From Apostichopus japonicus (Eukaryota; Echinodermata; Holothuroidea; Aspidochirotida; Stichopodidae): 64,000 bases of DNA. The notes under the pieces are model-generated. The model searched no databases, was not told where the DNA came from, and worked only from the letters and a program-made list of their open reading frames with translations. Within the stretch, counting starts at the first letter, position 1, and every line of letters starts with the position of its first letter. Below are positions 2,139 through 54,949 of the stretch, piece by piece. The translations under genes were made by a program, and so were the position numbers. The stretch is from assembly GCF_037975245.1 (NCBI RefSeq), contig NC_092565.1, forward strand, positions 8,466,999 to 8,530,998. Direction: 5' to 3'.

Positions 2139-2935
2139 TTAAATGCCTCTCACCTCTGCCATCTTGTAAAAATCTAGTTTTGGTCTAGCCTCTTCATCCC
2201 GCCTCCTCTTCTTCCCGCCTCCGCCGTGTCTCGACACCGGCACACAAGGTTGTGACTTGCATCTTTGGACCACCTTTTGATTTCTCAATTCCATGTCGTG
2301 AAGAGTGTCCGACCTACTACTGGAGACGGAGGTGACCGATCCGGAACTCTCGGACATACGATCTCGATCATCCACGGATGAGAAAGCATACATAGTCCTC
2401 GGTAGACACACAGGCCGGAAAGAATTGAACCTCTCAAACCAGAACGGAGGATTGGTACTGCCATCCCACGACGTTGCCGACACTGGCCTCTGTACAGGCG
2501 AATCCGGGGGAGTGGAATATTCTGAAATGTTTGAAGATGTTGCACCCGCATTTTGACTTGAAGGAATGTGGCTGGAAAGTCTGTGGTAATTAAAACAAGC
2601 AGTCTTTGAGAGGGGGGAGTGCCCCTGATACCCATCCAGTTTTGATCTTGTGCGGACTGGTCTCCAATGCTTTGTCGCCCGTGGTTTAAACCGGCTGCTG
2701 GCTCTACTTCTCTCTGTTACCTCCCCAGCTGACATTGACCTGCAGTGTCTCTTTTTGGGAGGTGCAGAAGGAGGTGTGGCTGAGAGGACTTTGCCCCCAT
2801 CTTGTCTGTCAGCTACGTCACTCTGAAGAAAATAGCATGCTGCTGAACCCGCTGTGTGAGATCTACTCCTTGGTCGCTCTTCAGGAGAGATATCATTGAC
2901 TGTTACCGGTGGGGCATCAAAGACGGTCCTACTCC
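2139..2935 (-). CDS. FAM53: FAM53 coding exon 3 (main exon)
   Basis: The acceptor on the minus strand is ttttccag just right of 2935. The exon enters with two bases that complete a Gly codon (phase 1 intron). It encodes residues 45-309, including the RHCRS, CKSQPCV, KKRRR and LDFYKM motifs, and ends in TAA at 2139-2141. Confidence 0.85.
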
Positions 2936-16651: not shown

Positions 16652-16979
16652 ATGATGGCTTCCGATGCCTGTTTCAAGTTTGCACTTATTCTGTGTGTTC
16701 TGTCAGCTGTCTTCCTTCAAGGTGATGGAGACATTCACAGGATCAGGAAACCAGCTTCCAGCCTTCATCTTAAATCATCTCAACAAATTAATACTCTTGA
16801 TAAAGAGGATTATGACACAAAAGTATATCCTGGGAACTCTGAGAATTATGATACAGATGAAGATTTAGACCAAACAAAGGACTACATGTGTGCTCTTTTA
16901 GCAACATTCCTGGTTGGCTTGACAGGAATTTTGCCACTTGCTCTTCCAATTGACTCAAAGCAAGTTGGTGAAGGATCAG
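16652..16979 (+). CDS. SLC39A13: ZIP13 exon 1
   Basis: Encodes residues 1-109 plus one base: signal peptide, acidic Asp/Tyr-rich luminal linker and TM1. Donor CAG|GTAAGC; phase 1. A second Met directly follows the first. Confidence 0.9.
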
Positions 16980-25900: not shown

Positions 25901-28900
25901 GGATGAAAGCTACATGTTGAGGAACATTGGGTGTCTTCCTCAATATATCATCTTTTGTTTATTCCAGGAAATCTGTTCATATCTGACCAGACTTGAAAAC
26001 GTGCAGTATATCTTACCAACTGTAGATTTTATGTTAAAAGTCTCAGACTGTGTTAATTCCTCAGAGAGGTATAATTTAGTCGCATTAATGACACAGAGCT
26101 GGGTGAAGGAAAGTTGTTAAAAATGAAAAGAAGTGTTACATTGCTAGCAAGGTACGACTGGATGTTGTTACCTGTCGGTTTGTGTTCAGTTATGTGTTTA
26201 CAGTAGGTCTTGTTCATGTGTCCTGTGTGCAGCTGCTACAGCACCAGGTATGTTTACAGTAGGTCTTATTCATGTTTCCTGTGTGCAGCTGCTACAGCAC
26301 CATGTATGTTTACAGTAGGTCTTGTTCATGGTTCCTGTGTGCATCTGCTACAGCACCATGTATGTTTACAGTAGGTCTTATTCATGGTCCCTGTGTGCAT
26401 CTGCTACATTACCATGTATGTTTACAGTAGGTCTTGTTCATGGTTCCTGTGTGCATCTGCTACAGCACCAGGTATGTTTACAGTAGGTCTTGTTCATGGT
26501 TCCTGTGTGCAGCTGCTACAGCACCAGGTATGTTTACAGTAGGTCTTATTCATGGTTCCTGTGTGCAGCTGCTACAGCACCAGGTATGTTTACAGTAGGT
26601 CTTCTTCATGGTCCCTGTGTGCATCTGCTACAACACCATGTATGTTTACAGTAGGTCTTATTCATGGTTCCTGTGTGCAGCTGCTACAGCACCATGTATG
26701 TTTACAGTAGGTCTTATTCATGGTTCCTGTGTGCATCTGCTACAGCACCAGGTATGTTTACAGTAGGTCTTGTTCATGGTTCCTGTGTGCAGCTGCTACA
26801 GTACCAGGTATGTTTACAGTAGGTCTTATTCATGGTTCCTGTGTGCAGCTGCTACAGCACCAGGTATGTTTACAGTAGGTCTTATTCATGGTCCCTGTGT
26901 GCATCTGCTACAACACCATGTATGTTTACAGTAGGTCTTATTCATGGTTCCTGTGTGCATCTGCTATAGCACCATGTATGTTTACAGTAGGTCTTATTCA
27001 TGGTTCCTGTGTGCATCTGCTACAGCACCATGTATGTTTACAGTAGGTCTTATTCATGGTTCCTGTGTGCATCTGCTACAGCACCATGTATGTTTACAGT
27101 AGGTCTTATTCATGGTTCCTGTGTGCATCTGCTACAGTACCAGGTATGTTTACAGTAGGTCTTGTTCATGGTTCCTGTGTGCATCTGCTACAGCACCATG
27201 TTCTTGTTCATGTTTCCTGTGTGCATCTGCTACACATGTAGTTGTAGGTCTAGTTATAGGGGTACAATATAGTTTGCTGTTCAGACCCTCCAGCAGTGAC
27301 TGCTTTGAGAACAATGTATTTCAACCACAAGAACCAGTGTATTTTAGCACATACTACAAACCTTGTGTATTATATTTTATTTCAGGTGGGATGGCACACC
27401 ACCCTTGCCATTTTACTGCATGAAGCACCACATGAGGTAAGTCATTAAAGTAATTCTTCTGAATTACTCTCCTAAGAATTCCTTCTTAGTCTCTAAATGA
27501 TGTCTCTCTGGTTACAGTAACAAGCTATCTACCTTTTCAATTATCTGTGACATTTGAAATTTGTATGGGAAGTTCTAATTACACGGATACTACAGCCTGC
27601 TAGTTATTATTGTAAGGATCATGCCATGTGATATAGTAATATCCATTAAATAATGCAGTAGTATCCATTAAGTAATATCCATTAAATAATATAGTAATAA
27701 CCATTAAATAATATAGTAATATCCATTAAATAATATAGTAATATCCATTAAACACTATAGTAGTATCCTTTCAATAAGATAGTAATATCCATTTAATAAT
27801 ATAGTATCCATTAAATAATATAGTAATATCCATTTAAGTAATATAAATAAAATAAAATAGTGCAGTATCCATTAACCAATATTGTAGTACCCATTAAATA
27901 ATATAGTAATATCCATTAAATAATATAGTAGTATCCTTTAAATAATATAGTAATATCCATTAAGTAATATAAATTAAATAATATAGTAACAGGTGCGTAT
28001 CCAGGGGGGGGCGTTGGGGGCGCGCGCCCCCCGGGTAAGAAAAAGAGAAGAGAAAAAAAGAGAAGAAAAAAGAGGGGAGAAAAAGAGGAGAAGGAGAGGA
28101 AGGAAGGGAAAAGAAAAAGAAGAAAGAGAGAAAAAGGAGAAAAAGAGGGAGTAAAAGCAAAACGCGAAGACACCGGGAAGAGAAAGAGGAACAGTGACAT
28201 CATTACAGCGCTGAAGGGTAGCCAGTGACGGATCAATGATTTCGTAAAAGTGTGACTCACCTTACCCCTTACACCGACAACTCCATTTTTTGACGTTTCC
28301 ATTTTCCTCTCTCACTAATGATCTATATATATACTATATATGGTCTATCATAACGCGTGTGTAGAATTGTGCTATGAAACCAACTGTGGCTGGTCTCGAA
28401 CTCGACCGTGTCGTCGGGGAACATGACGCATTTTGGGATGGGGGCGACCGCCCGCCCCCCCCCCATTCAGCATTTTTTAAATGATATCGCTAAGTAATTT
28501 CAAAATAGAAAGTGCTTAGAGGAAACTTACAAGGCCTGGGAAGTGTCATTTCCAGCGATCTGGGAGACATTTTCGGCCAAAATTTTCTTGTACGCTTCGC
28601 GCCAACCTATGGTGGCGCTACGCTTAGATAATTTGCCTACAGGCTTCGTCCCTCCCTTGGCAAATTCCTCGCTACGTGCCTGTTCGAATTTGTAACGCAA
28701 ACAGCAGATACCATCATCATATCAGTGAGCATGAAAATGGCGTTCCAGGATGAAAAGCCTCAAAACTGTCCGACTTGCCATCATGTACCGTACGGTCCGT
28801 TAAAATTGCGCAGTATACCGCGGGATGCTAATGTAAACAACGACATGTCTCATGTAGATGTATAAAAAGCATGGAGGTCCAATTATGTAAAAACTCTCTT

Positions 28901-31900
28901 TTACACTAGTAATGGCGAATTAGGGCCTGCACCCCCGCCGCGCAGTGGCGGAGCGTCCATATGGTCAGGGGGTGGATGCCCCCCCCCTGACGGACTCAAA
29001 TGGACTGCTGGCGCCTTTTTCAGCTCTTAACCACTTTTTAATTATTCTAGATTATTGACTTTTTTATTGCGCTCTCATCTACTTATTGACATTTGTCACA
29101 TTTTGTTGGTGTAATTTGGCGATGACACCTTATTCTTCGTTTATCTGCAAATTAGCCAGGCCCGGAAAGGGTCATTTCCTGCGATCTATTGAGTATCTTT
29201 ACTCAAAAATTTTCTGTACGCTACGCGCCAACCAGTGGTGGCGCTCCGCTTAGATAGTGTCGAAAGCGCCCCTTCAGACCATTCTCGCCACTCCTGACCA
29301 ATACCCCTAGCTCCGCCATTGCCGCCGCGCCTCCTACGCCTATGTGTGTAGTGTTCGGTTTCGGAAATATCTGCTATTTTTTCATTTCCTTCAACCAAGT
29401 TTTACAATAGCCGTTATAACAGGTTTTAATATTTGTACACCAATAAATTAACTGTGTCGAAAATTTCTGACCAACATTCTACATCACACTTCCCTCTACT
29501 CGTTTAATTTTGACCGGTCTGTTAGGGGTTGAAGGAAGTTTTTTCTATATTGGTTGTCCATAGATGAAATTTTGTACAAGATTATGGGTATGTTTTGAAG
29601 TGAGTTTATTCACGAAAAAAAGAATTTTCAAATTCTGAACAAATATGGGGCTTGAAACCTTAAAAAGTGGGGCTGACGGGTATTGTGGGCCGCGACGTAG
29701 AATCACCTACAAAAGCAAAGACCCACAGGAGATGCGATCAGGTCGAACATGATGTGTGCCGGGTTGACAATCTTCAAAAAGGTTATGGATGGGGGAAAAA
29801 AAAACTATTAGGAAATACTTGGTTCTCAGGCAAAAAGTGTTCATCTGGTTGGTCATTTCAAGCCCGAGAAGTGCCGTTTCCGGTGATCTGGGGGGTTTCA
29901 AAACAAGAAATTTTCTTGTACGCTGCGCGCCAACCGATGGTGGCGCTCCGCTTAGATAGTAATTCGCGCCCCCCGGGTTTGAAAATCCTGGATACACGCC
30001 TGAGTAATATCCATTTAACACTATAGTAGTATCCATTTAAGTAATATAGTAATATTACATTTAACAATATAGTATCCATTAAATAATACAGTAATATCCA
30101 TTTAAGTAATATAGTCATATATAATATATATTAAACAATGTAGTAATATCCATTTAATAGTATAGTAATATCCATTTAAGTAATATAGTCATATATACTA
30201 ATATATATTAAACAATGTAGTAATATCCATTTAATAGTATAGTAATATAACTGATGACATCTTGAATTCAGTATGGATAATGTAACTTGGCCTTTTTCTT
30301 TTGTTCATTTATAAAATTTACAGATTGGTGACTTTGCTATTCTTTTGAGGTCAGGGTTTAGTCGATTGGATGCAGCCAAAGCACAGCTTTCTACCTCTAT
30401 TGGAGGTCTGGTGGGGTGCTTAGTGGCCCTATTTGCTGAGTCAGCAGACATTACTGGTAACGTAGATTACTGTGGTTTCATGTTAACCTTTTACCAACAT
30501 ACTGGTTTTTAGGTGGTATCTGTATGGCTGTATGTCTGTCTGACCACAATCTTGTTAATTAAGCCTCGGAGTTGATTGTTGATGCATGCTTTATTTGACA
30601 TCAGTGACGGGACGGACTCGATTCTTCCTTCTAGCAATTCATTCTAGGAACATACATGGCCTGTAATTATATGAATTGTACAACTGAGGCCTGTAATGGT
30701 AGGAGTTTTGCATACATGGCCTGTAATATATTAGTTGTACAAACGTAGCCTGTAATTATAGGAGTTGTACAAATGTGGCCTGTAATTATAGGAGTTGTGC
30801 ATACATGGCCTGTAATAGTAGGAATTGTGCATACGTAGCCTGTAATCATAGGAGTTGTGCATACGTAGCCTGCAATTATAGGAGTTGTAAAAATGTGGCC
30901 TGTAAATTGTAGGAGTTGTGCACACATGGCTTGTTATTATATTAGTTGTACAAACATGGCCTGAAATCATAGGAGTTGTACAAATGTGGCCTGTAATTAT
31001 TGGAGTTTTACAAACGTGGCCTGTAAATATAAGAGTTGTAGAAAAATGAGTATTTACAGTTTAAGACTACCATTGTAATATGTTTGATTGTTCTCTTGTA
31101 TGGCATGATATCTATTGAAACAATGGCTTTGTGCTTGTTAATCATAATTTTGTATTTGGTCTCTCATAGGAACCAACACAGCATGGATTCTTCCATTTAC
31201 TTCAGGGGGATTTCTTAACATTGCCCTGGTCTCAATTGTGCCTGATTTGATGAAAGAAACAAATAGCAGGTAAATAAATCATTAAGGTTTTGTATGAAGT
31301 GATTGATGATGCAGGGAACAATGTGTACGTGATAATTAGTATGGAGAGAGCTGGAATAGTTGTTGTTGCTACTTTGCAGTGATAATGTGATAGGTATAGA
31401 GAAAAAGAGTTTATATCACGACCATGTGGTGGTAAGAGAACAAATTCTTGAAACCACAGTCAAATTTAGGTGAAAATGTTCTAGTTTGTTTCCAAAGTGG
31501 AAAACCTTATTACTGGCAGCTTATTACGATCTTATTATCGGTATACATAACCTACATACCGTGGCATTCAATGATCACTGAAATGGTGAACCTGGTGGTG
31601 TAAAGTGGAATAAATTGATGTAAGTTTGGGACTGAGATGCATTGTAACCAGCTGCTTTGATAAAGTTACAAGTTACAAGGTAGCAACAGGTATTGGAGTA
31701 CCACTAATACTGTAAGTAGATACCATTCCTTCATTAGCAAGTTGTATGGGAGTACCACTAATACTGTAAGTAGATATGGCAGTTCCTTCATTTATAGCAA
31801 ATTTCTTCTATTATGTTTTGTTTCAGAGAGTCCGCAAAGCAGGTTCTATGTGTGTTACTGGGAGTTTCAGTCATGGCTGTGGTGAACTTCATTCCAGATC

Positions 31901-36029: not shown

Positions 36030-36185
36030 TCACGAAGAATTGGAACAGAGTGGGGTCCCCTCGTGGGAATTTAACTTCATCTTGGAAATGTAGTAATCGA
36101 TGGAGTCCAGTATGAAAATAAACTCATCGAGACTGTTCAACATTAGAGCACGTTGGTTTAATTGTCCGGGGGTCGGTGGCGGTAT
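36030..36185 (-). CDS. gene B exon 4 with stop
   Basis: Acceptor gttccatag; phase 0. Fifty-one codons starting IPPPTPGQLNQ, then a strongly amphipathic stretch (LDEFIFILDSIDYYI), ending PLCSNSS and TGA at 36030-36032. Confidence 0.75.
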   Translation of the reverse strand: MPPPTPGQLNQRALMLNSLDEFIFILDSIDYYISKMKLNSHEGTPLCSNSS

Positions 36186-39100
36186 CTATGGAACAATTGA
36201 AATATTTATGGGATTAGCTATATAGGCTAAGCTGTACACAGCATGTGTATAGCAGAAGTTGCTTTATGGGCAACCATATTAGGATTGAACCGTGGTGGTG
36301 GTGGGTGGGGGGGGGGGGGTACAAAATAAGAGAGACAGTTGTTCACGTGACTTTGATTGGTAGGGGTTAATTTGTTTAAACGACATTCATCAACCAAAAT
36401 CATTTTCAAAATGGTACTTTTGAATAGCAAGAAGAGGCACTTTTCAAAAAAAAATGCGTCATGTGATCTTTTATCATTTTAAGACTGAGGAGGCGATGAA
36501 AAGAGAGAGAGAGAAGGAGGAGGACGGGGGTGCTACGGGTGGGGGGGGGGCTTCTTTTGACCTTTGATCCATTCTACTCACACGTATTGAGAACTATCTT
36601 TCATTACATGAAACTCACTCGTTGTAACGTAACTGATCAGCCTGAGGGTCATATTTCTTCCCGCTAAAAAGGCAAAGATTGTACCTTAAACACATTTTAT
36701 GCTAAATTACTGTCCATTACTGTCCAACCCCCCCCCCCCTACCTTCCGGGTTATAAATTTGTGCCTTCTTCTTAATTACGGTGGTGGTGTCTCCCCGAGG
36801 TTCTCATGAGTACGGTGAGCTCGTTTCCAAAACACTTACCCTACAATTACTGACAATGTAACTGTTCTGAGTGATTCTGGATAAATCACACGGACATTCG
36901 TCCTGCATCTCCCGAAGCTGTGTGTAGAGAGAGAGAGAACATTGGTAAATATGATTAAAAACTAGTATGATGAAAAGAAAATATTAATTTGACAATTAAT
37001 CATTTGTATATAATACAAACCATATATCACACACAATTTTAGGGGCGTGATCATATATACGAAGCAACACGCGTCTTTGCTAACTCATGAACAATTGAAC
37101 TTGTCTCATCGTGAAATGAACTCATTTGAAATTACATTCCTCACTAGCCTCCTTGAATTACGTTACTTGAGTGAATCTGTTTAATCTGACATGAACAGAG
37201 GTATAAAAGGACATGCGATTTACATTTCGTACTACAAAACATGTTCATACTTGAATGCAAACCGTTTGTTTAGCTATTGTGTCGAGCCGACTTTTTCTTG
37301 TTTTTTTTTCCTGAAAAGTCGGTTTCCTACCATATATATGTCTTCATGTTTCCATCACTGTATTTGGATTAGATTAATTACTGTAATCTGTAACACCTAT
37401 CATTAGTAAACGCAATGACATGTAATAACACGTCTCATAAATACAATCTGCAGTATGGCTATTCGTTTAATCTATAATACCTCATTAGAATAACAATGAC
37501 ATGTAATAACACATCTCATAAATACAATCTGCAGTATGGCTATTCCTTTAATCAATAATACCTCATTAGTAATAACAATGACATGTAATAACACATCTCA
37601 TAAATACAATCTGCAGTATGGCTATTCCTTTAATCAATAATACCTCATTAGTAATAACAATGACATGTAATTACACATCTCATAAATACAATCTGCAGTA
37701 TCGCTATTCGTTTAATCTATAATACCTCATTAGTAATAACAATGACATGTAATAACACATCTCATAAATACAATCTGCAGTATGGCTATTCCTTTAATCA
37801 ATAATGCCTCATTAGTAATAACAATGACATGTAATTACACATCTCATAAATACAATCTGCAGTATCGCTATTCGTTTAATCTATAATACCTCATTAGAAT
37901 AACAATGAATTGTAATAACACGTCTCATTATTGCAATCTGTAGTATCGCTATTCCTTTAATCTGTAACACCTCATTATTAAACACAATGACGTGTTATAT
38001 AGCCTAACACTTCTCATAATTGCAATCTGCATATCGCTATTCGTTTAATTTATAATACCTCAACAGAATAACAATGACATGTAATAACACATATCATAAT
38101 TGCAATCTGTAGTATCGCAAATACTGTAATGTGTAATAACTCATTATTAATACCAATAACGCGGTTATTAACTGTGTTACATCTCATAATTGCAATCTGT
38201 AGTATTGCAAATACTGTAATGTGTAATACGTCATCATCAATAACAATGACATGTAATAACACATCTCAATTGCATTCTGTAGTATCGCTATTCCTTTAAT
38301 TTATAATATCTCATTAGAATAACAATGACATGTAATAACTTAAAACCATTAGGACGTGCCAAACAAAACTCAACAGGAAAATAAAAACAAGGACACATTG
38401 TCCTAAATGTCATTATAATGTGCTCTGTTGTTTAAGTAGAATTAGCATAATACACGCGGTTCAGTTCTTAACATATGACACACCGGATGGAGCAACATTT
38501 ATGTTTCCTAATTTTCAGCTGAATATCTTATAATGCAAACCGGAAATGGCTATGGAAACATTCACTGGATCTTTTCATGAACTATAACATGTAACAATTG
38601 TTGACTTATCGGACTAAGACGAAATCATTCATTATGTACTGCATTTGATTATTTCTGCTGATGTGACGATATGACAACTACACCTGGTTCCATTCAACTT
38701 ACCGGTCTGAATGCGGAACAAATCATCACTTTTTCCTTTAAGACATGATTATTGAAGTAATTCAAAATCTACAATATGTACACAAATACAATTTTTGTTT
38801 GTTTTGTTTAACAACTTAATAGGTAACAAACACTTACCGATAGTAAGAGCATGAATTTTATTTTGGTTCTTTCCATTACCCAATCATTTCTCTCTCCATC
38901 CCCCCCCCCCCCCTTCTCTCTCCACCCACCTCTCTCACCACCTCTTCCTCTCTCTCTCTCTCTCAAACTATTCTTGTAAATGTTAGAAACTGACGTAATA
39001 CTTACGCATCCCATAATGTTATCAAAAGTGGAATTGGTGGACCACACCAAAGACACAATATCAGAACCGTAATTCTCACGAATAAGTTGAAACCACTTCA

Positions 39101-42100
39101 GCAGAGATGGAAATTGACCAATGCGAGAAGCGATCATGACACCTGGAGTATCCTGATAAGAAAATAGAAATAGACAGACTTCGAGAGACAAGTTGGGGCT
39201 TAGGAAACAATTTTTGCACGCTTTATCCTACAAGCTATGAAAAAAAAACACTATTCTTATCTCATATTTTCCCAAGCCCCTTCATATTTATCTGGGTCTG
39301 CTAATTGACTCCGGCTTCAGTGGCTGTAATTCACTGTATCTCTATACCCTCCCCACGTCAACTCCACCCGCACCGCCCCCCCCCCCCCCCGATTCAGGTA
39401 TTACTCAGAAATCAATTCATAGTCTAGTAGTTTGTCATTATTTTGAAGGAACAACTTTTAACAACTTAAATGTTTTCCCATAAACACATTGAGGAATGTT
39501 TCGATCGTTAGATGACGAAAGCAAAATTGTCATCGGCTGAAATATATTTAAAAATAGTACTTAGTTACGAATCTCACCAACTCGTAGTTGTAACAATTCG
39601 TCGCAAGCCTTCGTTCACGGATATCGGTGGGTCGGGCCTGTAAGTGAACAATAATAGGAGCGATGCTATCAAATATCATGCTACTACAGCCTATTATTTA
39701 TTAAACGTGAAACTGAAATGGTTGTATTGTATGGAACGCGAAAAGGGCAACTTATTTCGTTGCTAAGTTTAACGTAAGTATATAGACAACGACGTAAGTT
39801 TAGACAACGGAATTTTAGACATCAACGTGAGTTTGAGCAACAGCATGGTAAAACAGTAGCAACAACTTTAGTTTAGACAGCAACAAACTTAGTTTAGACA
39901 ACGAATTATGGTTGCCCTTTTCGCGTTCCATAGTATTGAAAGACGCTTGTTTAACATACTCATTTTCTGACCGTATTTTACTTAATTAAGTCATACATCA
40001 TTGTGCCTAGAAAATATACATATAAATATTAACACGAAATCGTGGTCTGTAAATGGTTTCAAATCTGTATTCATTTATTCAGTGGTTCAGCAATCCACTG
40101 GGCACAATCGCGAAGGGCCTTTGAATCTTTAACCATTTTTTTTTTTCAAGTTTAGTACATATCCTTAAAATGTTGGACCCTTGGATGTGATTAAATCATA
40201 TAATGCCAATCTCCAATTAAGGATTTATATGATGTAATTAACAAATGGCTTCAATAGTCATCTATAATTAACAAATGGTTTCATTCTTCACTCTCTAATA
40301 AACAAATGTTTTCATTAGCCACTCTCTAATTAACAAATGGTGTCATTAGTCACTCTCTAATAAACAAATGTTATCATTAGTCGCTCTCTAATTAACAAAT
40401 AGTGTCATTAGTCACTCTGTAAATAACAAATGGTTTCATTAGTCACTCTCTAAGTAACAAATAGTTTCATTAGTCACTCTCTAATTAACAAATGGTTTCA
40501 TTAGTCACTCTGTAATTAAGCAAAGGTTTCATTTAGTCACTCTCTAATAAACAGATGGTGTCATTTTTCACTCTCTAATTAACAGATGGTGTCATTAGTC
40601 ACTCTCTAAATAACAAATGGTTTCATTAGTCACTCTCTAATTAACAAATGGTTTCAATTTCAGTCTCTAATAAACAAATGGTGTCATTAGTCACTCTCTA
40701 ATAAAAAATGATTTCATTCTTCACTCTCTAATAAACAGATGGTGTCATTAGTCACTCTCTAATTAAGCAAAGGTTTCATTTAGTCACTCTCTAATAAACA
40801 GATGGTGTCATTATTCACTCTCTAAATAACAAATGGTGTCATTAGTCACTCTCTAAATAACAAATGGTTTCATTAGTCACTCTCTAATAAACAAATGGTT
40901 TCATTAGTCACTCTGTAATTAAGCAAAGGTTTCATTTAGTCACTCTCTAATAAACAGATGGTGTCATTAGTCACTCTCTAAATAACAAATGGTGTCATTA
41001 GTCACTCTCTAAATAACAAATGGTTTCATTAATCACTCTCTAATAAACAAATGGTGTCATTATTCACTCTCTAATTAAGCAAAGGTTTCATTTAGTCACT
41101 CTCTAATAAACAGATGGTGTCATTAGTCACTCTCTAATTAACAAATGGTTTCATTAGTCACTCTCTAAATAACAAATGGTTTCATTAGTCACTCTCTAAT
41201 AAACAAATGGTTTCATTAGTCACTCTGTAATTAAGCAAAGGTTTCATTTAGTCACTCTCTAAATAACAAATGGTTTCATTAGTCACTCTCTAAATAACAA
41301 ATGGTGTCATTAGTCACTCTCTAAATAACAAATGGTTTCATTAATCACTCTCTAATAAACAAATGGTGTCATTATTCACTCTCTAATTAAGCAAAGGTTT
41401 CATTTAGTCACTCTCTAATAAACAGATGGTGTCATTAGTCACTCTCTAATTAACAAATGGTTTCATTAGTCACTCTCTAAATAACAAATGGTTTCATTAG
41501 TCACTCTCTAATAAACAAATGGTTTCATTAGTCACTCTGTAATTAAGCAAAGGTTTCATTTAGTCACTCTCTAAATAACAAATGGTTTCATTAGCCACTC
41601 TCTAATAAACAGATGGTGTCATTAGTCACTCTCTAAATAACAAATGGTTTCATTAGTCACTCTCTAAATAACAAATGGTTTCATTAGTCACTCTCTAAAT
41701 AAAAAATGGTTTCATTAGTCACTCTCTAATAAACAAATGGTGTCATTATTCACTCTCTTATTAAGCAAAGGTTTCATTTAGTCACTCTCTAATAAACAGA
41801 TGGTGTCATTAGTCACTCTCTAATTAACAAATGGTTTCATTAGTCACTCTCTAAATAACAAATGGTTTCATTAGTCACTCTCTAATTAAGCAAAGGTTTC
41901 AGTAGTCACTCTCTAAATAAGAAATGGTTTCATTAGTCACTCTCTAATAAACAAATGGTGTCATTATTCACTCTCTAATTAAGCAAAGGTTTCATTTAGT
42001 CACTCTCTAATAAACAGATGGTGTCATTAGTCACTCTCTAATTAACAGATGGTGTCATTAGTCACTCTCTAAATAACAAATGGTTTCATTAGTCACTCTC

Positions 42101-43206
42101 TAATTAAGCAAAGGTTTCATTAGTCACTCTCTAAATAAGAAATGGTTTCATTAGTCACTCTCTAATAAACAGATGGTTTCATTAGTCACTCTCTAATAAA
42201 CATATGGTGTCATTAGCCACTCTTTAATTAACAAATTGTTTTATTAGTCACTCTCTAATTAACAAATGGTTTAATTAGTCGCTCTCTAATTAACGTATGG
42301 TTTCATTAGTCACTCCCTAATTAACAAATGATGTCATGAGTCACTCTCTTATTAACAAATGGTTTCAATTTCAGTCTCTAATAAACAAATGGTGTCATTA
42401 GTCGCTCCCTAATTAACAAATGGTGTCATTAGTCATTCCCTAATTAACAAATGGTGTCATTAGTCACTCCCTAATTAACAAATGGTGTCATTAGTCAGTC
42501 ACCAGGTTCTTTTGTGAGAGAAGTTACGAGAACGTGTCTCATTTTTAACAAATAAAAGGCCAAAAAGAACAATTATTTAAACACACAAATTCGAAAAAAA
42601 GTTACATAAATATATTTTGCGTCCCTCTTTATATTACCTTTCTAACAAACATCCATTCAGTTTGCCAGTTTATACATTAATTCATTCTGTAATTTACAAA
42701 TTAATGAATTCTGTTTATGTCTATAGTGCTTTTTAAAGTAACAATTTTTGTTTTAAATCTGCACTCTGCAGAAAGCAAGCTGGCAAGCAAATTATGAAGT
42801 GATAACTTACAATGTTGTCTCTGAGTTCCTGCACAGCGTCCGTAAACCCGATCCCATCCGAACATGCTTCGGGCATGTAACATACGTTTCTCTCCGTGCG
42901 TTTGTAGTTATAACCCCTCTCGTCCTCCATTGCTTTCGACCAGTTCTCATCCATGTATTTGTTGTAGATAGCGTGAGTTCGCTGCGGGTGTTCATTGATC
43001 AATCCCTTATCGGTTGGAAGTTTTTCTGCTGCCAACTTCATGTTGTTGCCCGCTACTTTGGACGCCAACATCCATCGAACGCCATCGCTGCTGCTAGGCT
43101 TCCAGAACACTTTTTGAGTAAAGACCCCGCCAACATGCAGGATACAGAACACGTACAGAGCAACTCGAGTAATGCCGGCTCGTTTCATTGTAGCCTGCGG
43201 TATCAT
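36030..43206 (-). CDS. gene B: unrecognised secreted protein, four exons, 258 residues
   Basis: Join of complement 42811-43206, 39006-39152, 36840-36917 and 36030-36185: 777 nt, all three introns phase 0 with clean sites (three GTAAGT donors). An in-frame TAA lies 22-24 bases upstream of the first ATG; a second Met (residue 7) precedes KRAGITRVALYVFCILHVGG, a signal peptide probably cleaved near VFTQ. The mature part has seven Cys (NVCYMPEACS, IMGC, DECPCD, SNCR, PLCS) and sequons NST and NSS. Hydrophobic, probably helical stretches lie in exon 2 (FPSLLKWFQLI) and exon 4 (LDEFIFILDSIDYYI). No transmembrane segment follows the signal. I do not recognise the family. It is the downstream neighbour of gene A, which has the same architecture. 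A cytokine-like role is a hypothesis only. Confidence 0.75.
36186..36839 (-). other. gene B intron 3
   Basis: Phase 0, 654 bp. Contains G-runs near 36304-36320 and 36541-36550, a GAGA tract near 36500 and a C-run near 36728. No repeat array. Confidence 0.7.
36840..36917 (-). CDS. gene B exon 3
   Basis: 78 nt, 26 codons, phase 0. The acceptor follows ctctctctctacacacag and the donor is AGG|GTAAGT. Encodes LREMQDECPCDLSRITQNSY and on to SNCR: three Cys in 26 residues. Confidence 0.78.
36918..39005 (-). other. gene B intron 2
   Basis: Phase 0, 2.1 kb. Includes the ~82-bp array at 37390-38345 and CT-rich text near 38890-38965. A donor-like site at 38829-38835 has no good acceptor, so I do not call an exon there. 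Confidence 0.7.
37390..38345. repeat. ~82-bp tandem array, about 11 copies
   Basis: Phrases aataacaatgacatgtaata, acacatctcataaatacaat and ctgcagtatggctattc recur about every 82-84 bp. Two unit classes (tatggctattcc and tatcgctattcg) alternate in part; the left edge toward 38345 (in gene direction) is more diverged. Confidence 0.88.
39006..39152 (-). CDS. gene B exon 2
   Basis: 147 nt, 49 codons, phase 0 both ends. Acceptor tttcttatcag, donor TGC|GTAAGT. Encodes DTPGVMIASRIGQFPSLLKW and on through one sequon (NST) to IMGC. Confidence 0.78.
39730..39932. mobile_element. 203-bp MITE with perfect 22-bp terminal inverted repeats
   Basis: The left end TATGGAACGCGAAAAGGGCA (plus AC) is the exact reverse complement of the right end at 39911-39932. 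The flanks carry an exact direct repeat gtattg (39724-39729 and 39933-39938). The interior is a degenerate series of GACAACG / GTTTAGACA words. No coding capacity; superfamily not identified. Confidence 0.88.
40238..42500. repeat. 31-bp satellite, about 73 copies, with ~155-bp higher-order period
   Basis: The monomer reads ctctaataaacaaatggttt plus cattagtcact. A variant monomer (attaagcaaagg) recurs near 40763, 40917, 41072, 41228, 41382 and 41540, so five monomers form a ~155-bp higher-order unit in the central part. Ends are more diverged and lack the higher order. Confidence 0.93.
42811..43206 (-). CDS. gene B exon 1 with start codon and signal peptide
   Basis: 396 nt, 132 codons; donor ATT|GTAAGT, phase 0. 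The start is the first ATG after an in-frame TAA. Encodes the signal peptide, a charged region and the two-Cys segment NVCYMPEACSDGIGF. Confidence 0.78.
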
Positions 43207-43280
43207 GATGTATCGATCGCTCTTATTTTACAGTCTGCTATCTCAAAATTAAAACTATACCATTTAAAAGGATGAAAATC

Positions 43281-43289
43281 GTTTATATA
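43281..43289 (-). promoter_or_regulatory. candidate TATA box of gene B
   Basis: TATATAAAC on the minus strand, about 75 bp upstream of the gene B ATG. Transcription starting ~30 bp downstream would leave a short 5' UTR of about 45 nt. Position and sequence fit, but AT-rich DNA gives many such matches. Confidence 0.35.
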
Positions 43290-46200
43290 ATGTCAGACAA
43301 TTTCGTGAAATATTACCGTCAGCAAACCTGTGTATACCTGGAGCATGTTCTCTCATGAATATATCATGAAGCTTAATATTGGAGAATGATGTTATCTCAC
43401 AATTCTGTTAGTCGAATAACTTGCATTGAGTCTTTGACTAGAGGCAAAATCAGTAGATCAACCGAAAGCGACAAATGATATCCGGATCGATAATATTAAA
43501 TATTGATATCGTTCCGTTAGTTTTAAAAACAAAAAAGTTAAAAAGAGGCTTCAGTAATGTTCCGACAAATAAAGAATGACGCAAATGAAATAAAACTTTA
43601 ATATCCCAAACCACGTAGATGACCTCTGTGTAAAAGCAATGCTAGGCGATTGGTCGCTTAATATCCATAAAGTATATGCTAATTGATCTTACAATTTGCA
43701 TATCTCCTATTGTTGCCTAACCGATCATCTCAAAATGTCATCAAATCAAATGTGAAAACGATGTTAACTTACTCTGAGAATAACAAGACAGAGAGGTATA
43801 ATAGTGAAGTCAAATTAATAACACTCGACTATTCATCAGATATAAATACAGGAATATCGATATTCTGCAAAGGAATTAAGTAGATTCTCCAAATTAACGA
43901 TCTTAATTGTTTTTAGAGAAGGGTCAGAGAAGTCACTGTTGTTATAAACAATGAACAAACAAAAGAAATCTTTCTATTACATAAATACCAGGCTCAGCTT
44001 GTCAGAGAGACTGACGTCTAAACAGCTTTGATTTGAAGTATTAATATGTTTTTCCTACTCGGAGGTCACAACAATAGTCATAAGAATTTTCGTCAAAATG
44101 TCGAATTTTGTTCAACAGCCTATATGCCTCCCATGCACGCCCTGCTCCTCTCTACCTTACTCAAAATATTAAACTACAACAAATTCTTTCCGGCGTTCTT
44201 GCTTTTACCAAATAAACGGACACCTGGGTCAGACTGACGAACAAATAAAAGGAGCGAGAAGGTCCCTCTCACCAAGCCCCCCCCATCCCTCCCAACCCTT
44301 AAAACAATCAACTTTCCTTCTTCAGGTACAGGGCGGGATATTCGACTGATTCTGATCTCATTCTCTGCTAGAATAGCTTTAACTTGTTTTACTGTATAGT
44401 CAAGATTGGCAATAGCATAGTCGAGAAATTAACCGTAGTCGACAACAAGTCATAGGATTATATCAATGCACCCCAGTCAAGGCAGGCATCCCCTTTTTTG
44501 GCAATACGAAAGTCTAATACGGCCTTACGTGAAGCTAACTTCAAACCTGGAACAACGTATAGTTAAAGTTTTTGTGATCGGAGGAGGATATAGTGTTTAT
44601 TTGACATCATAATGTAAATCCCGAGGCTCTACAGACAAAAAGAAACTATGGATACATATGATTAGTTCATGTTCCTAATTCGTCAGATTATTCACAATAA
44701 TGATAAGTATTAGGAGGAACAGTTGAAAATGTTCCTCTCACTATGAACACGGAACCTTATTTACCATCACAGAGATTGTTTAACTCACAAACAGTATAGA
44801 ATAGGATCGATTTGGTTAAAGAATTCGATAAACATTTCAGTGTTTTTTTTTGTAGAACGGTCAAAGAGATGCATCAATCAGTACTAGTTAGCAAGTTACT
44901 GATTGGTTTGATATGTTCGCTAAGGAGAGAGAATATGAAGTGAGGTCGGTGCTCATGATGTAGGGGAAGGAGGGAATACGGGGTCGGTTTGGAAGGCGGG
45001 GTTAGGGTAGTAGAGGTTACAAGGGACGGGAATAGGGGGAAGGGGGAGGCGGAGTAGGAGAGAAGGTTGGGAGACGCAAAGAGGGGTGAGCAAGGTGAAC
45101 ACGCTATAAATAAAACACATTTCATTCATTTAATTGAAACAAGTGCTCAAGGAGTAGTTATATTATGCTCTCTTCTGATAATATATAACTCATTATATTT
45201 GCTATATTTAAATTGATATATTTTTTAAATCACATGAAGGATTTTGAAAGAAGAAAATGCGAACTAAACAATACACATGCCATGTAGCAATAAATTGAAG
45301 ATTGAAATTGATGTTTTAATAAATAAATGAATATTGATATTTGATCATGTTTTTGCAATGATTAGTTTCTGACAGACAACTTGCTTGTCAATTACAATTT
45401 TATTAATTTATAAATAATTTTGGTTATGAAATCAAATTAATTTGCTTAAGCTCGAGTGATTCGAGTACCGATAAAATAACACCCCGCGACATAGTTACTT
45501 ATATGAACATAGTTATATGCATGCTATAACTAGGCCTAAATAATAATGAAGGTTTCTTTTTAAAAAGCATTGAACTACCGTATCATGTGGTAGAAGATGG
45601 ACTCATACGTCACTCCACGCTAGCCCACAACTTCAACACATATTTAGATCAATTTAGATAAATATGCCATTTCGGAATGCACAGAGGATATAATCGTTAA
45701 CTAGAATTGCATTTGCCAGCAAATACGCAGTATTGTAGTGGGCGTGGAGTGCTTGCAGTATATTAGGAAGAACTTTTAGGTTGTTCATGGCGGTTAGTTC
45801 CGTGCAGGACAACAAACTAGGGAGTATAGTCGTATTGTATTGTAGGTAACGACAAAGTGAGGCCGCTTGTGAGCGCCGTGACAGGCAGGCTCAGAATAAG
45901 TTGGCTACGCAGCTAGCCTCTGAAATTGCAAATATACAGATACTATATGAAACTTTTAAGTTTCAACGAGCAGTCATGTAGGTATCGTTCACTTGACCAC
46001 GAATGCCAATATTGTAGCGCGCACGCGCACTACAATAAATATGTTAGCTTTCTTCGCAACCAGTCTTCCGCAGATGACTCAACTTGAATACCACGTTGTA
46101 TTAATATCATATACCAGTATCGACACCACAATGATCACTACAACGGCATTACTATACATACACCTGACTCAAATCGAGTTAGAACAGACGCCATTGTTGA

Positions 46201-46297
46201 TTCAGGTATATAAATAAATGAGGTATATAAATAAAGCCTATACCGGTACATGATTTTAAATCTTTAAAGTTCATGAACCATCTTTTACCAACATTTC
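43290..46297. other. intergenic region between genes A and B
   Basis: 3.0 kb without a recognised coding exon. Contains C-runs near 44278, a G-rich tract near 44955-45060, AT-rich text at 45190-45430, a short inverted repeat (cactccacgc near 45611, gcgtggagtg near 45743) and an NRF1-like near-palindrome at 46011-46036. Confidence 0.5.
46011..46036. promoter_or_regulatory. GC-rich near-palindrome with NRF1-type site
   Basis: The stretch is an imperfect palindrome (ATTGTAG arms facing CTACAAT) with the core CGCGCACGCGCA at 46018-46029, which fits the NRF1 consensus YGCGCANGCGCR. It stands alone in AT-rich DNA about 270 bp beyond the gene A stop and 2.8 kb upstream of gene B. Function unknown. 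Confidence 0.35.
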
Positions 46298-46384
46298 TCA
46301 GTCACGGGCAACTAACTTACACTCATTGAATAGTTGAAGCAGATGATTATTCATAGAAGAGAAATTAGTAACGTTATCTAAAAC
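46298..46384 (-). CDS. gene A exon 6 with stop
   Basis: Excellent acceptor (attctttcttgttgcag); only phase 0 is open. 28 codons with two sequons (NVT, NFS), ending LFNECKLVARD and TGA at 46298-46300. A GTAAGT at 46315-46320 could alternatively splice this exon on in phase 1. Confidence 0.6.
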   Translation of the reverse strand, partial: VLDNVTNFSSMNNHLLQLFNECKLVARD

Positions 46385-49300
46385 CTGCAACAAGAAAGAA
46401 TAATCCCCTCACGGAACACTCGAAACCTCGCCAAATGTTCGCGAGGAACACAGATAACACATCATGCATAGATAGCGTGTAGCTTGATAGTGGAAATGTG
46501 CATCTGTGATTCACGAAATTCCACGAATATGTTCTCCCGAAGAATACAATCAAATTACGTAATGTGTTAGTCAGGTTAACACTCGTCGTAAACTCTTCTT
46601 AAACAATGAAATGAGAATCCATAAAATATTTGCGGCTTAATCTATTACTCATCCAAGCCGAAACCGTCGACAAAATAAACCCTAACCATGCAGTGCGTAT
46701 GTCGCCCACAGTTAAATAATGATATGCAGTGTTGACACCCCCACGGAGATTGGAATCACAAACAACCGAAAGGCAAAGCATGCTATCCAGCCTACAGAAA
46801 TCTGAACAAATCAAAAGAGTAGAACAACAGTGGACGGATCCTGTAGTTACCATGCTAGTTACAACAACTCCTGCTTAACTTTTATTATCGGTGTATTTTG
46901 GACGGCAGAAATAGTGGTAAGTTACTTTTATTCTTGTATTGGTTACGTTATATTTGGTATTACCATATATAGTTAACAGTGCATGCCACTTTGTAGACAT
47001 TCTATGTGTATGGTATTGCCACACATCACCTTCCTTTGTATCGTCAATATCTTTACGTTTTATCTGTTTTCTCTGTCGTTCATTCTTCGTTTATGTTTCG
47101 GGTTTTATTATTACCGCGTTCTTGTTTCTGTCTTTGTTTTTTGTCTTTTTGTTTCTGTTTCTGTTTCTCTTTCCTATCTCGTTTCCTTTGTCTCTTCTCC
47201 AACCTCTCTCTTTTCTTTCTGTCCCTGACTTGTTTCGCCCTCATTTTGTCACAGTATTGTTCGAAGCCATCGATATCGTTGTCACTCGATGAATTACCAA
47301 TGTACTTGCTCAACATGAGCTCAATGGCGCCAGACCATTCCTCTATAGCAGTCGAATAAAAGGAAGTTGGGTCACATCCACTCTCCTGCAAATATAGACA
47401 ATTATTATCTGATTATCATACATTTATATATGAAATAATTATAGGAAAACCTTTGTTAAACTGCAGCTTAGTTAGGAAAGGGCGGATGACAATATCAGTA
47501 AGATAAAGGTGAAATTCATCAGTAAGGTAAAGGTGGATGAAAACTTGACTTAGGTAAATGTTGATGAAAGCATCAGTTAGGTAACACGTCGATGAATGCA
47601 TCAATTATAGGTATACGCACGTTGATGAAAGCATCAGTTAGGTATACGCACGTCGATGAATGCATCAGTTAGGTATACGCACGTTGATGAAAGCATCAGT
47701 TAGGTATACGCACGTTGATGAAAGCATCAGTTAGGTATACGCACGTCGATGAATGCATCAGTTAGGTATACGCACGTTGATGAAAGCATCAGTTAGGTAT
47801 ACGCACGTTGATGAAAGCATCAGTTAGGTATACGCACGTTGATGAAAGCATCAGTTAGGTATACGCACGTTGATGAATGCATCAGTTAGGTATACGCACG
47901 TTGATGAATGCATCAGTTAGGTATACGCACGTTGATGAATGCATCAGTTAGGTATACGCACGTTGATGAAAGCATCAGTTAGGTATACGCACGTTGATGA
48001 AAGCATCAGTTAGGTATACGCACGTTGATGAAAGCATCAGTTAGGTATACGCACGTTGATGAATGCATCAGTTAGGTATACGCACGTTGATGAATGCATC
48101 AGTTAGGTATACGCACGTTGATGAATGCATCAGTTAGGTTGGTATACGCATGGAAACACTATCCAACTGACTTACATTGTGATTAAACCAATTGGATGAA
48201 ATCCTTAAATACGATTTAAATAGTAGCTTAATATTCATGATATTTACCTGGGTGATATTCAGCCTGTTGTTGGATGGTAGAATATTGCAATTAGCCTCCC
48301 CTATCTGTACAAAATGTAGAGAAAAAAAAACTGTAATTCTCTTATGACGTTTAATTGAACTTTTGCCTCTTTACATGTTGAAAAATAATAACATCTTACA
48401 CAGAATGGCATAGAGTACAAACACATTGTAGCTTACATAGAGGATCTGTAAAAGAGTGATTCACGTAAGTCCTTTCCAAAATAACCGTATCAGCTGTGTA
48501 TGAATACACAGGGCCAAGCCACAAACCATGTCTAATTAAACCAGGGAGGTGTTAGAAATAAATAAACAACTGAGTATGGAGCCTAATTGAAGCTATGAGT
48601 TGTATCCTGTAATGATTTTAGTCTACTGTTTCAACCAATTGGTATATACATTAGCATTAACATTGCATAACTACGAATTACGGACTCTCTCGGCGTGTGC
48701 TTACCCTTATGTGATCCCACCCCTCTTATTTACCCCCCACCCTACTGCCCTCATATAACTATTGTAATTCCATCCGTCATATTTTTTTTCAATTACATTT
48801 TAAAGATGACGCGACGAGGGTGTCGCAGTCAATAGCACCATTTTGATAACATATATTCTGTTGCATTACTTTTCGCTCCTCCAATTGTTCTAAAACAGGA
48901 AAACAATGATAACTTTATTCATATAGTCCTTGCTAATGATAACCATATAAGACTCGTAAAAACACTGTGATCTATGGTTCTGAAGATTTGGCATTTCATT
49001 CTATTTTTTAATCTAAAATCAAGGTAGGCTATAGCTGTAAAGATTGTCGGCTAAGCATATATCACTTGAAAGTACTCTTGATGTTCTTGTCGTCATCTGA
49101 AAATCTTCTCAATTGTGAAATATTCAGCATCCCTTTGGGAACGTTAACTAAACTTGGCTTAAAGAGGCAATGAATAGGCCTGCCATCAATCACACCAATT
49201 CCCCAGAATATATTGAGAGTGAGTTACATCCGCAGTCTGAGAGTATCTCCCTCTCTATAACAACCCTCTGAACAAACCAACCAACGTTTAATGCGGTGAT

Positions 49301-50920
49301 TTGTTCGAAGGAACAAGGAAACGGTGCTCAAAAGGGAACAAATATAAAATATCACGTAGGGGTCTCTGTGGAATGGGTTGGGTGGGTGGGGGAGGGTGGG
49401 TGGGTGGGGGAGAAAGTGAGGGTTGAGAGGGAGGGTTGGGGAGGATCAAAACGAGATAAAGGGAGTGATTACGTACCGTTCTAAAGAATGTTTTGTTGAA
49501 GTTAATCAGACGAGGTGGTAACACATCATCATATTCTGTGCATTCAATATCTTCTGACACTTCGAAATTGGGCATATCCCGCACAGCCTCTGTTATGAAA
49601 TATAGACAGCGACTTCGCCCAGATTTCTATATGCAAATAAATACACACGACGGAGATATATGTTGATATTTGCTCATTTTTTTCTCTTATGTACAGTGCT
49701 TGTAATATATATTTCTTTTACGATGTTTATGTATTTTCACTTTTTCATGGCATAGTTAAAGAATTTCATTAGAATTAGTCCTAGAGACTCGCTGCCCCCT
49801 TCCCACCTTCAATTTACACATATAGGTGAAACTAGCATCCGAAGTGTGTGAAGTTTCTAACAATTATGGCAGTTATAATGTCAATGGGCAGCGGTCACAG
49901 CTGATACGATGGCCCCTTAATTAGGGTCTGTGGTTAAAAACGAGCATCTTCATAATTTAGTGGGGGGGGGGGGGGGGCTGGGAATCTAATAGAACACTTA
50001 AGATTTCAAATGCCCTGCTTACTTTCCACATAAGACCCCAACTTTTTTTAAATATATTTACATACCTTAGCTATGGACGAATCACTGCAAATTCCATCCT
50101 CCGTTGTGGCGTTGTTTAAGGCGTCCAACCCCGAGACCTAACAATGGAAAAGGAAATTTATTTATATATATATATAAATATAGATACCATATATATACCA
50201 TATATATACCATGTATTTATACCATATATATACCATATATACCATATATATACCATACATATACCACATATATACCATATATATATACCACATATATATA
50301 TACCATATATATACCATATTTTCTACCATGAAATGGGTGGGCTGGGATGTCGTCATGGTAGAGGTTCTTCAAAAGGTTTATAACCTTATTGTGGATATCT
50401 CCTTGAGTTGGGATGCAGTTGATATATTTGCTTATAGCTGTTTAATGTTCTCATCAGTAAGAATTTCATAATCTTGCAATTTGTTTATAAGAAAATTATC
50501 TTCCTCAATGAATGAGTTACCGCACTGAGAAAGAATTTCTTTTATTTTTATTATTATTTTCAGTCAGTTAGTTTTTAGAATATTGAAACATATATTGGGA
50601 TGATCATACTTCTAAAATACCAGCACTTACCCCTCCCCCCTTCCCAAACCCCGCCCATAATGATATTTACATATATTCCAATGATGACTGGTGACTAAGA
50701 ACACTGTGTTAGAAAGAGCTTAAAAAAAGGAGAAGTGTTTGTAGCCTATATGACTTACTCTACAATGTTCAGCGTGTTCTGATGCAGCTGACGATATGTC
50801 TTTTATCTGTTCGTACAAATCATTTATATCGCCATTCCATACATGACAACATGACAAAGTTATAGTCTCGAATAACAAAACGGCCGTTAGAAGATGGAGT
50901 GCCCAATCGGAAATACCCAT
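46298..50920 (-). CDS. gene A: unrecognised secreted glycoprotein, six exons, about 214 residues
   Basis: Join of complement 50759-50920, 50066-50137, 49477-49587, 48248-48304, 47230-47385 and 46298-46384: 645 nt, every coding intron phase 0. An in-frame stop in the upstream non-coding exon makes the ATG at 50920 the first Met. The signal peptide is MGISDWALHLLTAVLLFETI and ends near LSCC. The mature chain has about nine Cys and six N-glycosylation sequons (NAT, NKT, NIT, NSS, NVT, NFS), strong signs of a secreted glycoprotein. Later exons give probable helices (TAIEEWSGAIELMLSKYI; FEQYCDKM; NNHLLQLFNECK). The weak point is the exon 5 donor (CAA|GTCAGG), non-consensus but the only phase 0 choice. 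Without it the frame runs on to a TGA at 47080 and adds a ~50-residue Lys/Arg-rich tail. I do not recognise the family. Confidence 0.7.
47230..47385 (-). CDS. gene A exon 5
   Basis: Acceptor tatatttgcag; phase 0. Encodes ESGCDPTSFYSTAIEEWSGA on to FEQYCDKMRAKQ. The proposed donor is CAA|GTCAGG. The alternative is an exon reading on to the stop at 47080 through a very basic stretch (KKRERLEKRQRKRDRKEK). Confidence 0.6.
47386..48247 (-). other. gene A intron 4
   Basis: Phase 0, 862 bp, mostly filled by the 31-bp array at 47485-48140. Confidence 0.7.
47485..48140. repeat. 31-bp tandem array, about 20 copies
   Basis: The unit reads cagttaggtatacgcacgtt plus gatgaaagcat, with gaatgcat and cgtcgatg variants. 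The first few copies toward 47485 are diverged; the copies from about 47610 on are nearly identical. Confidence 0.93.
48248..48304 (-). CDS. gene A exon 4
   Basis: 57 nt, 19 codons, phase 0. Acceptor ttttgtacag, donor CAG|GTAAAT. Encodes IGEANCNILPSNNRLNITQ, with one sequon. Confidence 0.72.
48305..49476 (-). other. gene A intron 3
   Basis: Phase 0, 1.2 kb. No repeat array; a GT-rich/GGGT tract lies at about 49370-49445 next to the exon 3 donor. Confidence 0.65.
49477..49587 (-). CDS. gene A exon 3
   Basis: 111 nt, 37 codons, phase 0. The acceptor is cataacagag and the donor ACG|GTACGT. Encodes AVRDMPNFEVSEDIECTEYD on to NKTFFRT. Using the other AG two bases earlier would break the frame. 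Confidence 0.75.
49588..50065 (-). other. gene A intron 2
   Basis: Phase 0, 478 bp, with a G-run near 49962-49977. No array. Confidence 0.65.
50066..50137 (-). CDS. gene A exon 2
   Basis: 72 nt, 24 codons, phase 0. Acceptor ccattgttag, donor AAG|GTATGT. Encodes VSGLDALNNATTEDGICSDS and SIAK, with one sequon (NAT). Confidence 0.74.
50138..50758 (-). other. gene A intron 1 with ATACC microsatellite
   Basis: Phase 0, 621 bp. About 50162-50325 is an (atataccat)n-type AT-rich simple repeat. The frames there reading Tyr-Ile-Pro repeats are artefacts. Confidence 0.7.
50162..50325. repeat. ATACC/TATA simple-sequence repeat
   Basis: Interrupted repeats of accatatat(at). Open on both strands, but plainly low complexity. 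Confidence 0.85.
50759..50920 (-). CDS. gene A exon 1 (coding) with signal peptide
   Basis: 54 codons from ATG at 50918-50920 to AGA|GTAAGT; phase 0. The exon itself begins about 50943 after ctttttcttcag, so it carries some 23 nt of 5' UTR. Encodes the signal peptide, two adjacent Cys and the helix-like INDLYEQIKDISSAASEHAE. Confidence 0.76.
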
Positions 50921-53309: not shown

Positions 53310-54660
53310 ACCATAGGTATGTATGTAACACTGAAATGTTTATTAACCAGATAGATCTGAAACACTGAAATGTTTATAACCAGATAGATATGTAATACTG
53401 AAATGTTTATAACCCCATAGGTCTATTACACTGAAACGTTTATAACCACATAGATCTGTAACAATGAAATGTTTATAACCAGATAGATCTGAAATACTGA
53501 AATGTTTATAACCAGATAGATATGTAACACTGAAATGTGTATATTAATGCATATATCTGTAACACTGAAATGTTTACATCCACATAGATCCGTTACACTG
53601 AAATGTTTATAACCACATAGACTCTATAACACTGAAGTGTTTATAACCAGATAGACATGTAACACTGAAATGTTTATAACCACATAGATATGTAGAACTA
53701 AATGTTCATAACCAGATAGGTATGTAACACTGAAATGTTAATAACAACATATATCTATTACACTGAAATGTTAATAACCACATAGATATGTAAAACTGAA
53801 ATGTTAAAAATCACATAGATATGTAGAACTAAATGTTGAAAACCACATAGATCTGTAACACTGAAATGTTTATAATCAGATAGGTAAGTAACACTGAAAT
53901 GTTTATAACCACATATATATATAATACTGAAATGTTAATAACCACATAGATCTGTAACACTAAAATGTTTATAATCACATAGATATGTAGAACTAAATGT
54001 TCATAACCAGATAGGTATGTAACACTGAAATGTTAATAACAACATATATCTATTACACTGAAATGTTAATAACCACATAGATATGTAAAACTGAAATGTT
54101 AAAAATCACATAGATATGTAGAACTAAATGTTGAAAACCACATAGATCTGTAACACTGAAATGTTTATAACCAGATAGGTAAGTAACACTGAAATGTTTA
54201 TAACCACATATATATATAATACTGAAATGTTAATAACCACATAGATCTGTAACACTAAAATGTTTATAATCACATAGATATGTAGAACTAAATGTTCATA
54301 ACCAGATAGGTATGTAACACTGAAATGTTAATAACAACATATATCTATTACACTGAAATGTTAATAACCACATAGATATGTAAAACTGAAATGTTAAAAA
54401 TCACAAAGATATGTAGAACTAAATGTTGAAAACCACATAGATCTGTAACACTGAAATGTTTATAACCAGATAGGTAAGTAACACTGAAATGTTTATAACC
54501 ACATATATATGTAATACTGAAATGTTAATAACCACATAGATCTGTAACACTAAAATGTTTATAATCACATAGATATGTAGAACTAAATGTTCATAACCAT
54601 ATAAATCTGTAACATTTCAATGTTTATAGACGCATAGATTTTATTACTGAATGTTCATAA
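53310..54660. repeat. ~33-bp tandem array with ~295-bp higher-order repeat
   Basis: The monomer contains acactgaaatgtttataacc and acatagatatgta. A distinctive run (tgtagaactaaatgttcataa) starts near 53691, 53986 and 54281, giving a higher-order period of about 295 bp (nine monomers) with three nearly identical copies. The left part is monomeric and more varied. Confidence 0.92.
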
Positions 54661-54949
54661 CCACAATGATTTATTAGGTTAATTGAATTGTACAATAATA
54701 GCTGGTCCGAGTGATGCCCAACCCAAAACGCCACTTTAAAGTAATTTATCGTAACTTCAGATTGCGAAATAAAATGATAATAACGGAATAAATTAGCAAA
54801 TTTGAACTGATAACAAGGAACGTAAATAACTCTTGTCAAAACTCCATTTCCTGGTACCTATGACAGTTTTGTTCATCACTGCAAGTTCATTAAAACTCAG
54901 CCTATGGGTTTAATTATACTTCTTAATTAAATATAATAGCGTATAACAT

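Follow-up and report, generated by a model that had tools for sequence, protein, structure and literature searches.

A tandem cluster of candidate helical cytokine genes with an IL-10/interferon-like five-exon structure in the sea cucumber Apostichopus japonicus

A 64,000-nucleotide stretch of the Apostichopus japonicus genome (contig NC_092565.1, positions 8,466,999–8,530,998; the window) contains two neighboring genes, A and B. They belong to a minus-strand cluster of four or more genes (order B, A, C, D) for small, cysteine-bearing and putatively secreted proteins. A, C and D, with B adjoining, constitute a computationally solid, diverged tandem family of probably secreted proteins with a cytokine-type gene structure. 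For the interpretation that A–D are helical cytokines of the five-exon (IL-10/interferon-like) type, which would fold as α-helical bundles and act as extracellular signals, the balance is about even. The stricter claim, that a non-vertebrate animal carries clustered class II (IL-10/interferon-type) helical cytokine genes, is somewhat doubtful. Coordinates are positions of the window unless a locus name (L008, L009 or L020) is given.

Exons and introns of genes A and B

The two genes are composed of the following exons.

50759–50920, minus strand: gene A exon 1, 54 residues, hydrophobic signal-like N-terminus and an amphipathic segment
50066–50137, minus strand: gene A exon 2, 24 residues, phase 0 at both ends
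49477–49626, minus strand: gene A exon 3, 50 residues, two amphipathic segments, Cys at +7 and +29
48248–48304, minus strand: gene A exon 4, 19 residues, Cys at +6
47080–47385, minus strand: gene A exon 5, C-x12-W segment (common to C and D), Lys/Arg-rich tail, stop
42811–43206, minus strand: gene B exon 1, 132 residues, hydrophobic N-terminus, ~70-residue extension, two Cys, amphipathic segment
39578–39637, minus strand: gene B exon 2, 20 residues
39006–39152, minus strand: gene B exon 3, 49 residues, Cys as last codon
36840–36917, minus strand: gene B exon 4, 26 residues, Cys at +8, +10 and +25
36030–36185, minus strand: gene B exon 5, last amphipathic segment, stop

All eight coding introns (four in A and four in B) are of the GT-AG type and lie in phase 0, and the donor starts with gta in seven of them and with gtg in intron 2 of B. 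A dynamic-programming gene finder, which combined a splice score with a coding score (approximate matrices) and left the phases free, returned nearly the same exons for A and B, again in phase 0. The best scores (35.3 for A and 66.2 for B) were reached by none of 60 dinucleotide shuffles for either gene (shuffle maxima of 14.7 and 14.3, respectively). Phase 0 was not imposed by the finder, because the exons of a ZIP zinc transporter in the same window were chained with phase-1 starts. The G+C content exceeds that of the flanks in all ten exons, barely so for exon 3 of A and exon 3 of B. A and B both look like real genes with phase-0 introns, and the tandem arrangement and intron phases described in an earlier sequence-only reading of this DNA are borne out.

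Alternative chains were also obtained. At a penalty of 7, a seven-exon chain for A, in which exon 5 is truncated at 47115 and two short exons are added, scores 35.3 versus 35.1 for the five-exon chain; raising the penalty to 9 removes exon 3 of A. The finder's choice for B is a longer exon 3 that ends at 38838 and runs into low-complexity sequence. Over 14-kb chunks, the finder also joins A to B via weak exons at 44–45 kb, so the borders between the two genes are not fixed by computation.

The N-glycosylation sequons number five in A (residues 63, 122, 144, 178 and 240) and three in B (88, 192 and 276), which corrects earlier counts of six and two. A Cys pair 14–16 residues apart, described for both proteins, is present in B (C211–C226, 15 residues); the spacing in A is 17 residues (C134–C151). 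Two different minisatellites of 31-base units occupy introns, one in gene B (40235–42497) and one in gene A (47560–48139).

The 3′ end of gene A

Two further features bear on the end of gene A.

46927–46932, minus strand: AATAAA downstream of gene A
46298–46384, minus strand: last exon of A in the sequence-only reading, with an excellent acceptor and no good phase-0 donor before it; outside the main model

The stop of gene A at 47080 is followed by AATAAA signals at 46932 and 46886. The open frame of the tail is no proof by itself, because the A-, G- and C-rich composition of the region would keep it open; the tail is supported by the similar last exon and tail of the paralogue D and by the downstream AATAAA signals. 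The exon-like stretch at 46298–46384 has a 28-residue frame and an acceptor score of 8.5, unsurpassed on the window's minus strand. Exon 5 has no donor scoring above 2, and its phase-0 donor scores 0.9. Given these weak donors, the AATAAA after the stop and the similar tail exon of D, the stretch was set aside as the last exon of A. Gene A probably ends at 47080, with no need of this stretch in the gene model, and 46298–46384 is possibly an alternative exon.

Genes C and D and kinship within the cluster

Twelve flanking loci (six, then six more) were examined for further genes. Two were found beyond A.

L008 8517–8702 (exon 1), 6700–6867 (exon 3), 5524–5592 (exon 4) and 4861–5067 (exon 5), minus strand: gene C
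L009 7647–7853, 7091–7144, 6356–6541, 5101–5157 and 3642–4034, minus strand: gene D, five exons

Exon 2 of C was not found among the phase-0 exons of L008. Because the search for C and D considered phase-0 exons only, their phases are not independent evidence. For exon 4 of D there are two candidates, 5637–5696 (60 base pairs, bp) and 5101–5157 (57 bp), both in phase 0 and ending in SCNGE and SCDSE, respectively; the two are possibly mutually exclusive.

The four genes were compared pairwise by exon-anchored alignment (standard score, z, and 300 shuffles). A, C and D resemble one another (A–C, z 3.43, 0/300 shuffles; A–D, z 3.35, 0.01; C–D, z 5.92, 0/300). Their last exons open with a Cys that is followed by a Trp exactly 13 residues on (C-x12-W) and by a second Cys 36–41 residues past the first. 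In 164 kb, the early-Cys last-exon candidates with Trp at exactly +13 are, on the minus strand, just those of A, C and D and, on the plus strand, a single one. A Lys/Arg-rich basic tail is present in A and D and absent from B and the modelled C. Judged by sequence, the demonstrable relatives of A are C and D, both on the same strand and outside the window.

No sequence similarity was found between A and B (best blastp expectation value, E, of 1.3; exon-anchored z of 0.29), which leaves the earlier proposal that they are diverged members of one family unsupported at this level. The overall similarity of B to C and D is likewise nil (z 0.62 and 0.56). These values favor a partition in which A and B are unrelated neighbors, A/C/D forming one family and B another, and in which the cytokine interpretation would stay possible for each; this partition is given a little less than an even chance. 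Against it, A and B are adjacent on the same strand and share the five-exon phase-0 layout and similar sizes of exons 2 and 3, and exon 3 of B and D taken alone gives 0.01 in the exon-anchored comparison. Kinship of B to A, C and D would be one of position and layout. Genome-wide searches of the 671.6-Mb, 35-contig assembly returned only A itself with A, and B itself plus one match at E 10 with B; such searches miss diverged paralogues, as the search with A failed to recover C and D.

A further gene may lie beyond the far end of the cluster, where a first-exon candidate at L020 8613–8771 (minus strand) matches a Sel1 repeat weakly (E 0.03, under the cut-off).

Comparison with cytokine gene structures

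Five coding exons are found in A and B (allowing for the finder alternatives) and in D, which has a possible extra exon 4. The internal exons 2/3/4 measure 72/150/57 bp in A, 60/147/78 bp in B and 54/186/57 bp in D and resemble those of human IL10 (60/153/66 bp). The first four exons encode 54/24/50/19 residues in A, 132/20/49/26 in B and 69/18/62/19 in D, next to 55/20/51/22 in human IL10 (a total consistent with 178 residues). Relative to these exon borders, the Cys positions are partly IL-10-like: the last residue of exon 3 in B and +6 of exon 4 in A.

The sequence-only reading had compared A and B with the IL-6/G-CSF group of helical cytokines. This group shares small, secreted, helical products and mostly phase-0 introns, but its first intron is in phase 1 and follows a short signal exon, whereas exon 1 here holds both the signal-like stretch and the first amphipathic segment. 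The helical cytokine idea itself gains support and is retained as the best explanation at hand. As the closest group, IL-6/G-CSF is replaced by the IL-10/interferon type, whose published marks are a signal peptide and five coding exons separated by phase-0 introns. Instead of class II, the genes could be cytokine-like genes of the class I short-chain (IL3/IL21) kind, a distinctly improbable alternative; exon 3 of A, B and D (147–186 bp) is nearer to that of IL10 (153 bp) than to that of IL3 (96 bp). In favor of class I, the same five-exon structure with unsplit codons occurs in IL3 and IL21 (PMC2654155), and an IL6R-like receptor is reported from a sea urchin (PMC13203501).

Five coding exons, four phase-0 introns, a signal-like N-terminus, clustering and little sequence conservation are shared with the class II helical cytokines, comprising the IL-10 family, interferon-lambda, fish type I interferon and IFN-upsilon (PMC2654155, PMC8863823, PMC4929537). 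An identical five-exon structure without split codons is described for all six IL10-family genes, IL3, IL21 and IFNL1, and sequence identity among interferon-lambda, the remaining interferons and the IL10 family amounts to ∼5–15%, under the reach of BLAST (PMC2654155). IFN-upsilon was itself discovered via five coding exons, phase 0, a signal peptide and helices (PMC8863823). A–D differ from this class in the long N-terminal extension of B and the long basic tails of A and D; in addition, their profile match is not significant, and a likeness in fold and receptor is putative. Among invertebrate proteins, the ∼15-kDa interferon-like protein CgIFNLP of oyster is likewise a candidate interferon-like signal (PMC8218723).

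Profile, fold and receptor tests

A–D were fitted exon by exon, with exon ends fixed, to a profile of IL-10, -19, -20, -22, -24 and -26. B fits with a z of ∼4 (0/1200 plain shuffles; 0.005 of 1200 rotations), and D fits at 0.0025 (400 shuffles), with its exon 3 at 0/400. A fits at 0.017 in plain shuffles and at 0.01 in a 400-shuffle run. Segments of Escherichia coli used as decoys reached B in 0/230 cases and A in 1/230 (raw score) or 10/230 (z). With Cys treated as neutral, B gives 0.0008 in plain shuffles, 0.0525 in rotations and 0.14 in class-preserving shuffles. True IL-10 family members, left out singly, score z values of 9.9–20.2 in the same test. The fit is thus suggestive for B and D, weak for A and absent for C. 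Three points keep this reading at no more than suggestive: the decoys were not secreted proteins rich in Cys, the decoy run covered A and B, and the layout had been noticed before the template was chosen.

Hydrophobic N-termini of A and B, as well as several Cys residues, were read directly from the translations, in agreement with the sequence-only reading; the signal peptide that it also assigned is a prediction from them. A first-exon filter for signal-like starts listed C and D, not A and B. Secretion of A–D is suggested by the hydrophobic N-terminus, and disulfide bonds may form. A helical fold is suggested by α-periodicity: the periodicity at 100° is above shuffles for A (0.01), C (0/300) and D (0.01), and that at 170° is above shuffles in none of the four. 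In all four proteins, exon 1 and the end of exon 3 contain some of the strongest amphipathic windows; the start of exon 3 does so in A, C and D, and the exon 5 helix in B, C and D. The remaining strong windows are elsewhere, such as in exons 2 and 4 and, in A, past the exon 5 helix. The low-confidence AlphaFold2 model of A is all-helical, and that of B has short strands.

Several results weigh against the cytokine interpretation. With residue class kept, the IL-10 fit weakens to 0.053 for B (600 shuffles) and 0.28 for A, and under rotation that of A weakens to 0.14, so much of the fit represents an amphipathic pattern. C does not fit the profile (0.38), and, as noted, the template was selected once the layout had been seen. 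hhalign gave E values of 0.51 and 0.39 with a probability of 0.1, and Pfam gave no match over the cut-off. A PDB search with A and B found nothing at E 10, and one with D gave a single unrelated match (E 0.64). The helix periodicity of B is not significant (0.113). AlphaFold2 without relatives reached predicted local distance difference test (pLDDT) values of 35 for B and 38 for A, too low for use, and Foldseek with the A model found no match below E 7.3; this check, advised by the sequence-only reading, gave the fold no support. The last-helix motif alone was rejected as evidence, as it is not special: B is reached by 16/2000 plain and 302/2000 class-preserving shuffles and A by 324/2000 plain shuffles, and a stretch of B exon 3 outscores the last helix of B, as do 8 of 23,540 open-frame windows. 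A six-frame PF01108 search, which intron-split domains could escape, established no class II receptor. Of its two matches, one has an E of 0.222; the other, over the cut-off, is matched better by fn3 (5e-10 versus 5.1e-7), adjoins an I-set domain and was rejected as a receptor in favor of an ordinary fn3 domain.

The missing profile match lowers the cytokine claim little, because the real members IFN-gamma and IFN-lambda also fail un-anchored alignment to the IL-10 profile; that alignment was dropped as uninformative.

The lack of a family match over the cut-off and of an established class II receptor, together with the Lys/Arg-rich tails of A and D and the strong divergence within the tandem cluster, would also suit lineage-specific secreted effectors with helices and disulfide links (e.g., cationic antimicrobial or matrix-binding proteins), unrelated to cytokines and lacking a cytokine receptor. 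This explanation is rather unlikely: the basic tail is missing from B and the modelled C, B and D fit the exon-anchored IL-10 profile, and the five-exon all-phase-0 structure is a recognized cytokine signature (PMC2654155, PMC8863823).

Possible action and significance

As cytokines, A–D would bind receptors and trigger JAK-STAT-type signaling. The basic tails of A and D may bind heparan sulfate or other polyanions and keep the ligand near its source, and an RTER|N site ahead of the first core Cys of B may free a mature core from the pro-segment.

According to one hypothesis, type I interferons are a novelty of vertebrates and lack a clear homologue among invertebrates; which genes underlie antiviral immunity in hemichordates has been described as an open question (PMC10210618). 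In a 2026 survey, IL6R-like receptors were placed in echinoderms, but IL6 was found only in vertebrates (PMC13203501). Among the papers listed from an open-licence library, judged by titles and abstract openings, none names a five-exon IL-10/interferon-type gene in an invertebrate; subscription journals and preprints lay largely outside its scope. A–D may be signaling proteins that invertebrates were thought to lack. If so, class II cytokines and their five-exon gene would predate vertebrates, and the cluster would supply missing ligands for invertebrate JAK-STAT receptors. With its five-exon phase-0 structure, the cluster provides directly testable cytokine candidates.

Other features of the window

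2142–2966, minus strand: FAM53 gene (Pfam E 1.1e-17)
9208–9585, minus strand: open frame with a signal-like start and no Pfam match
16616–30509, plus strand: pieces of the ZIP zinc transporter, convergent with gene B

The transporter, presumably SLC39A13-like, matches PF02535 in three of five tested frames, each below the curated cut-off. Further arrays, of 33-base units, are located at 21810–23051 and 53322–54665.

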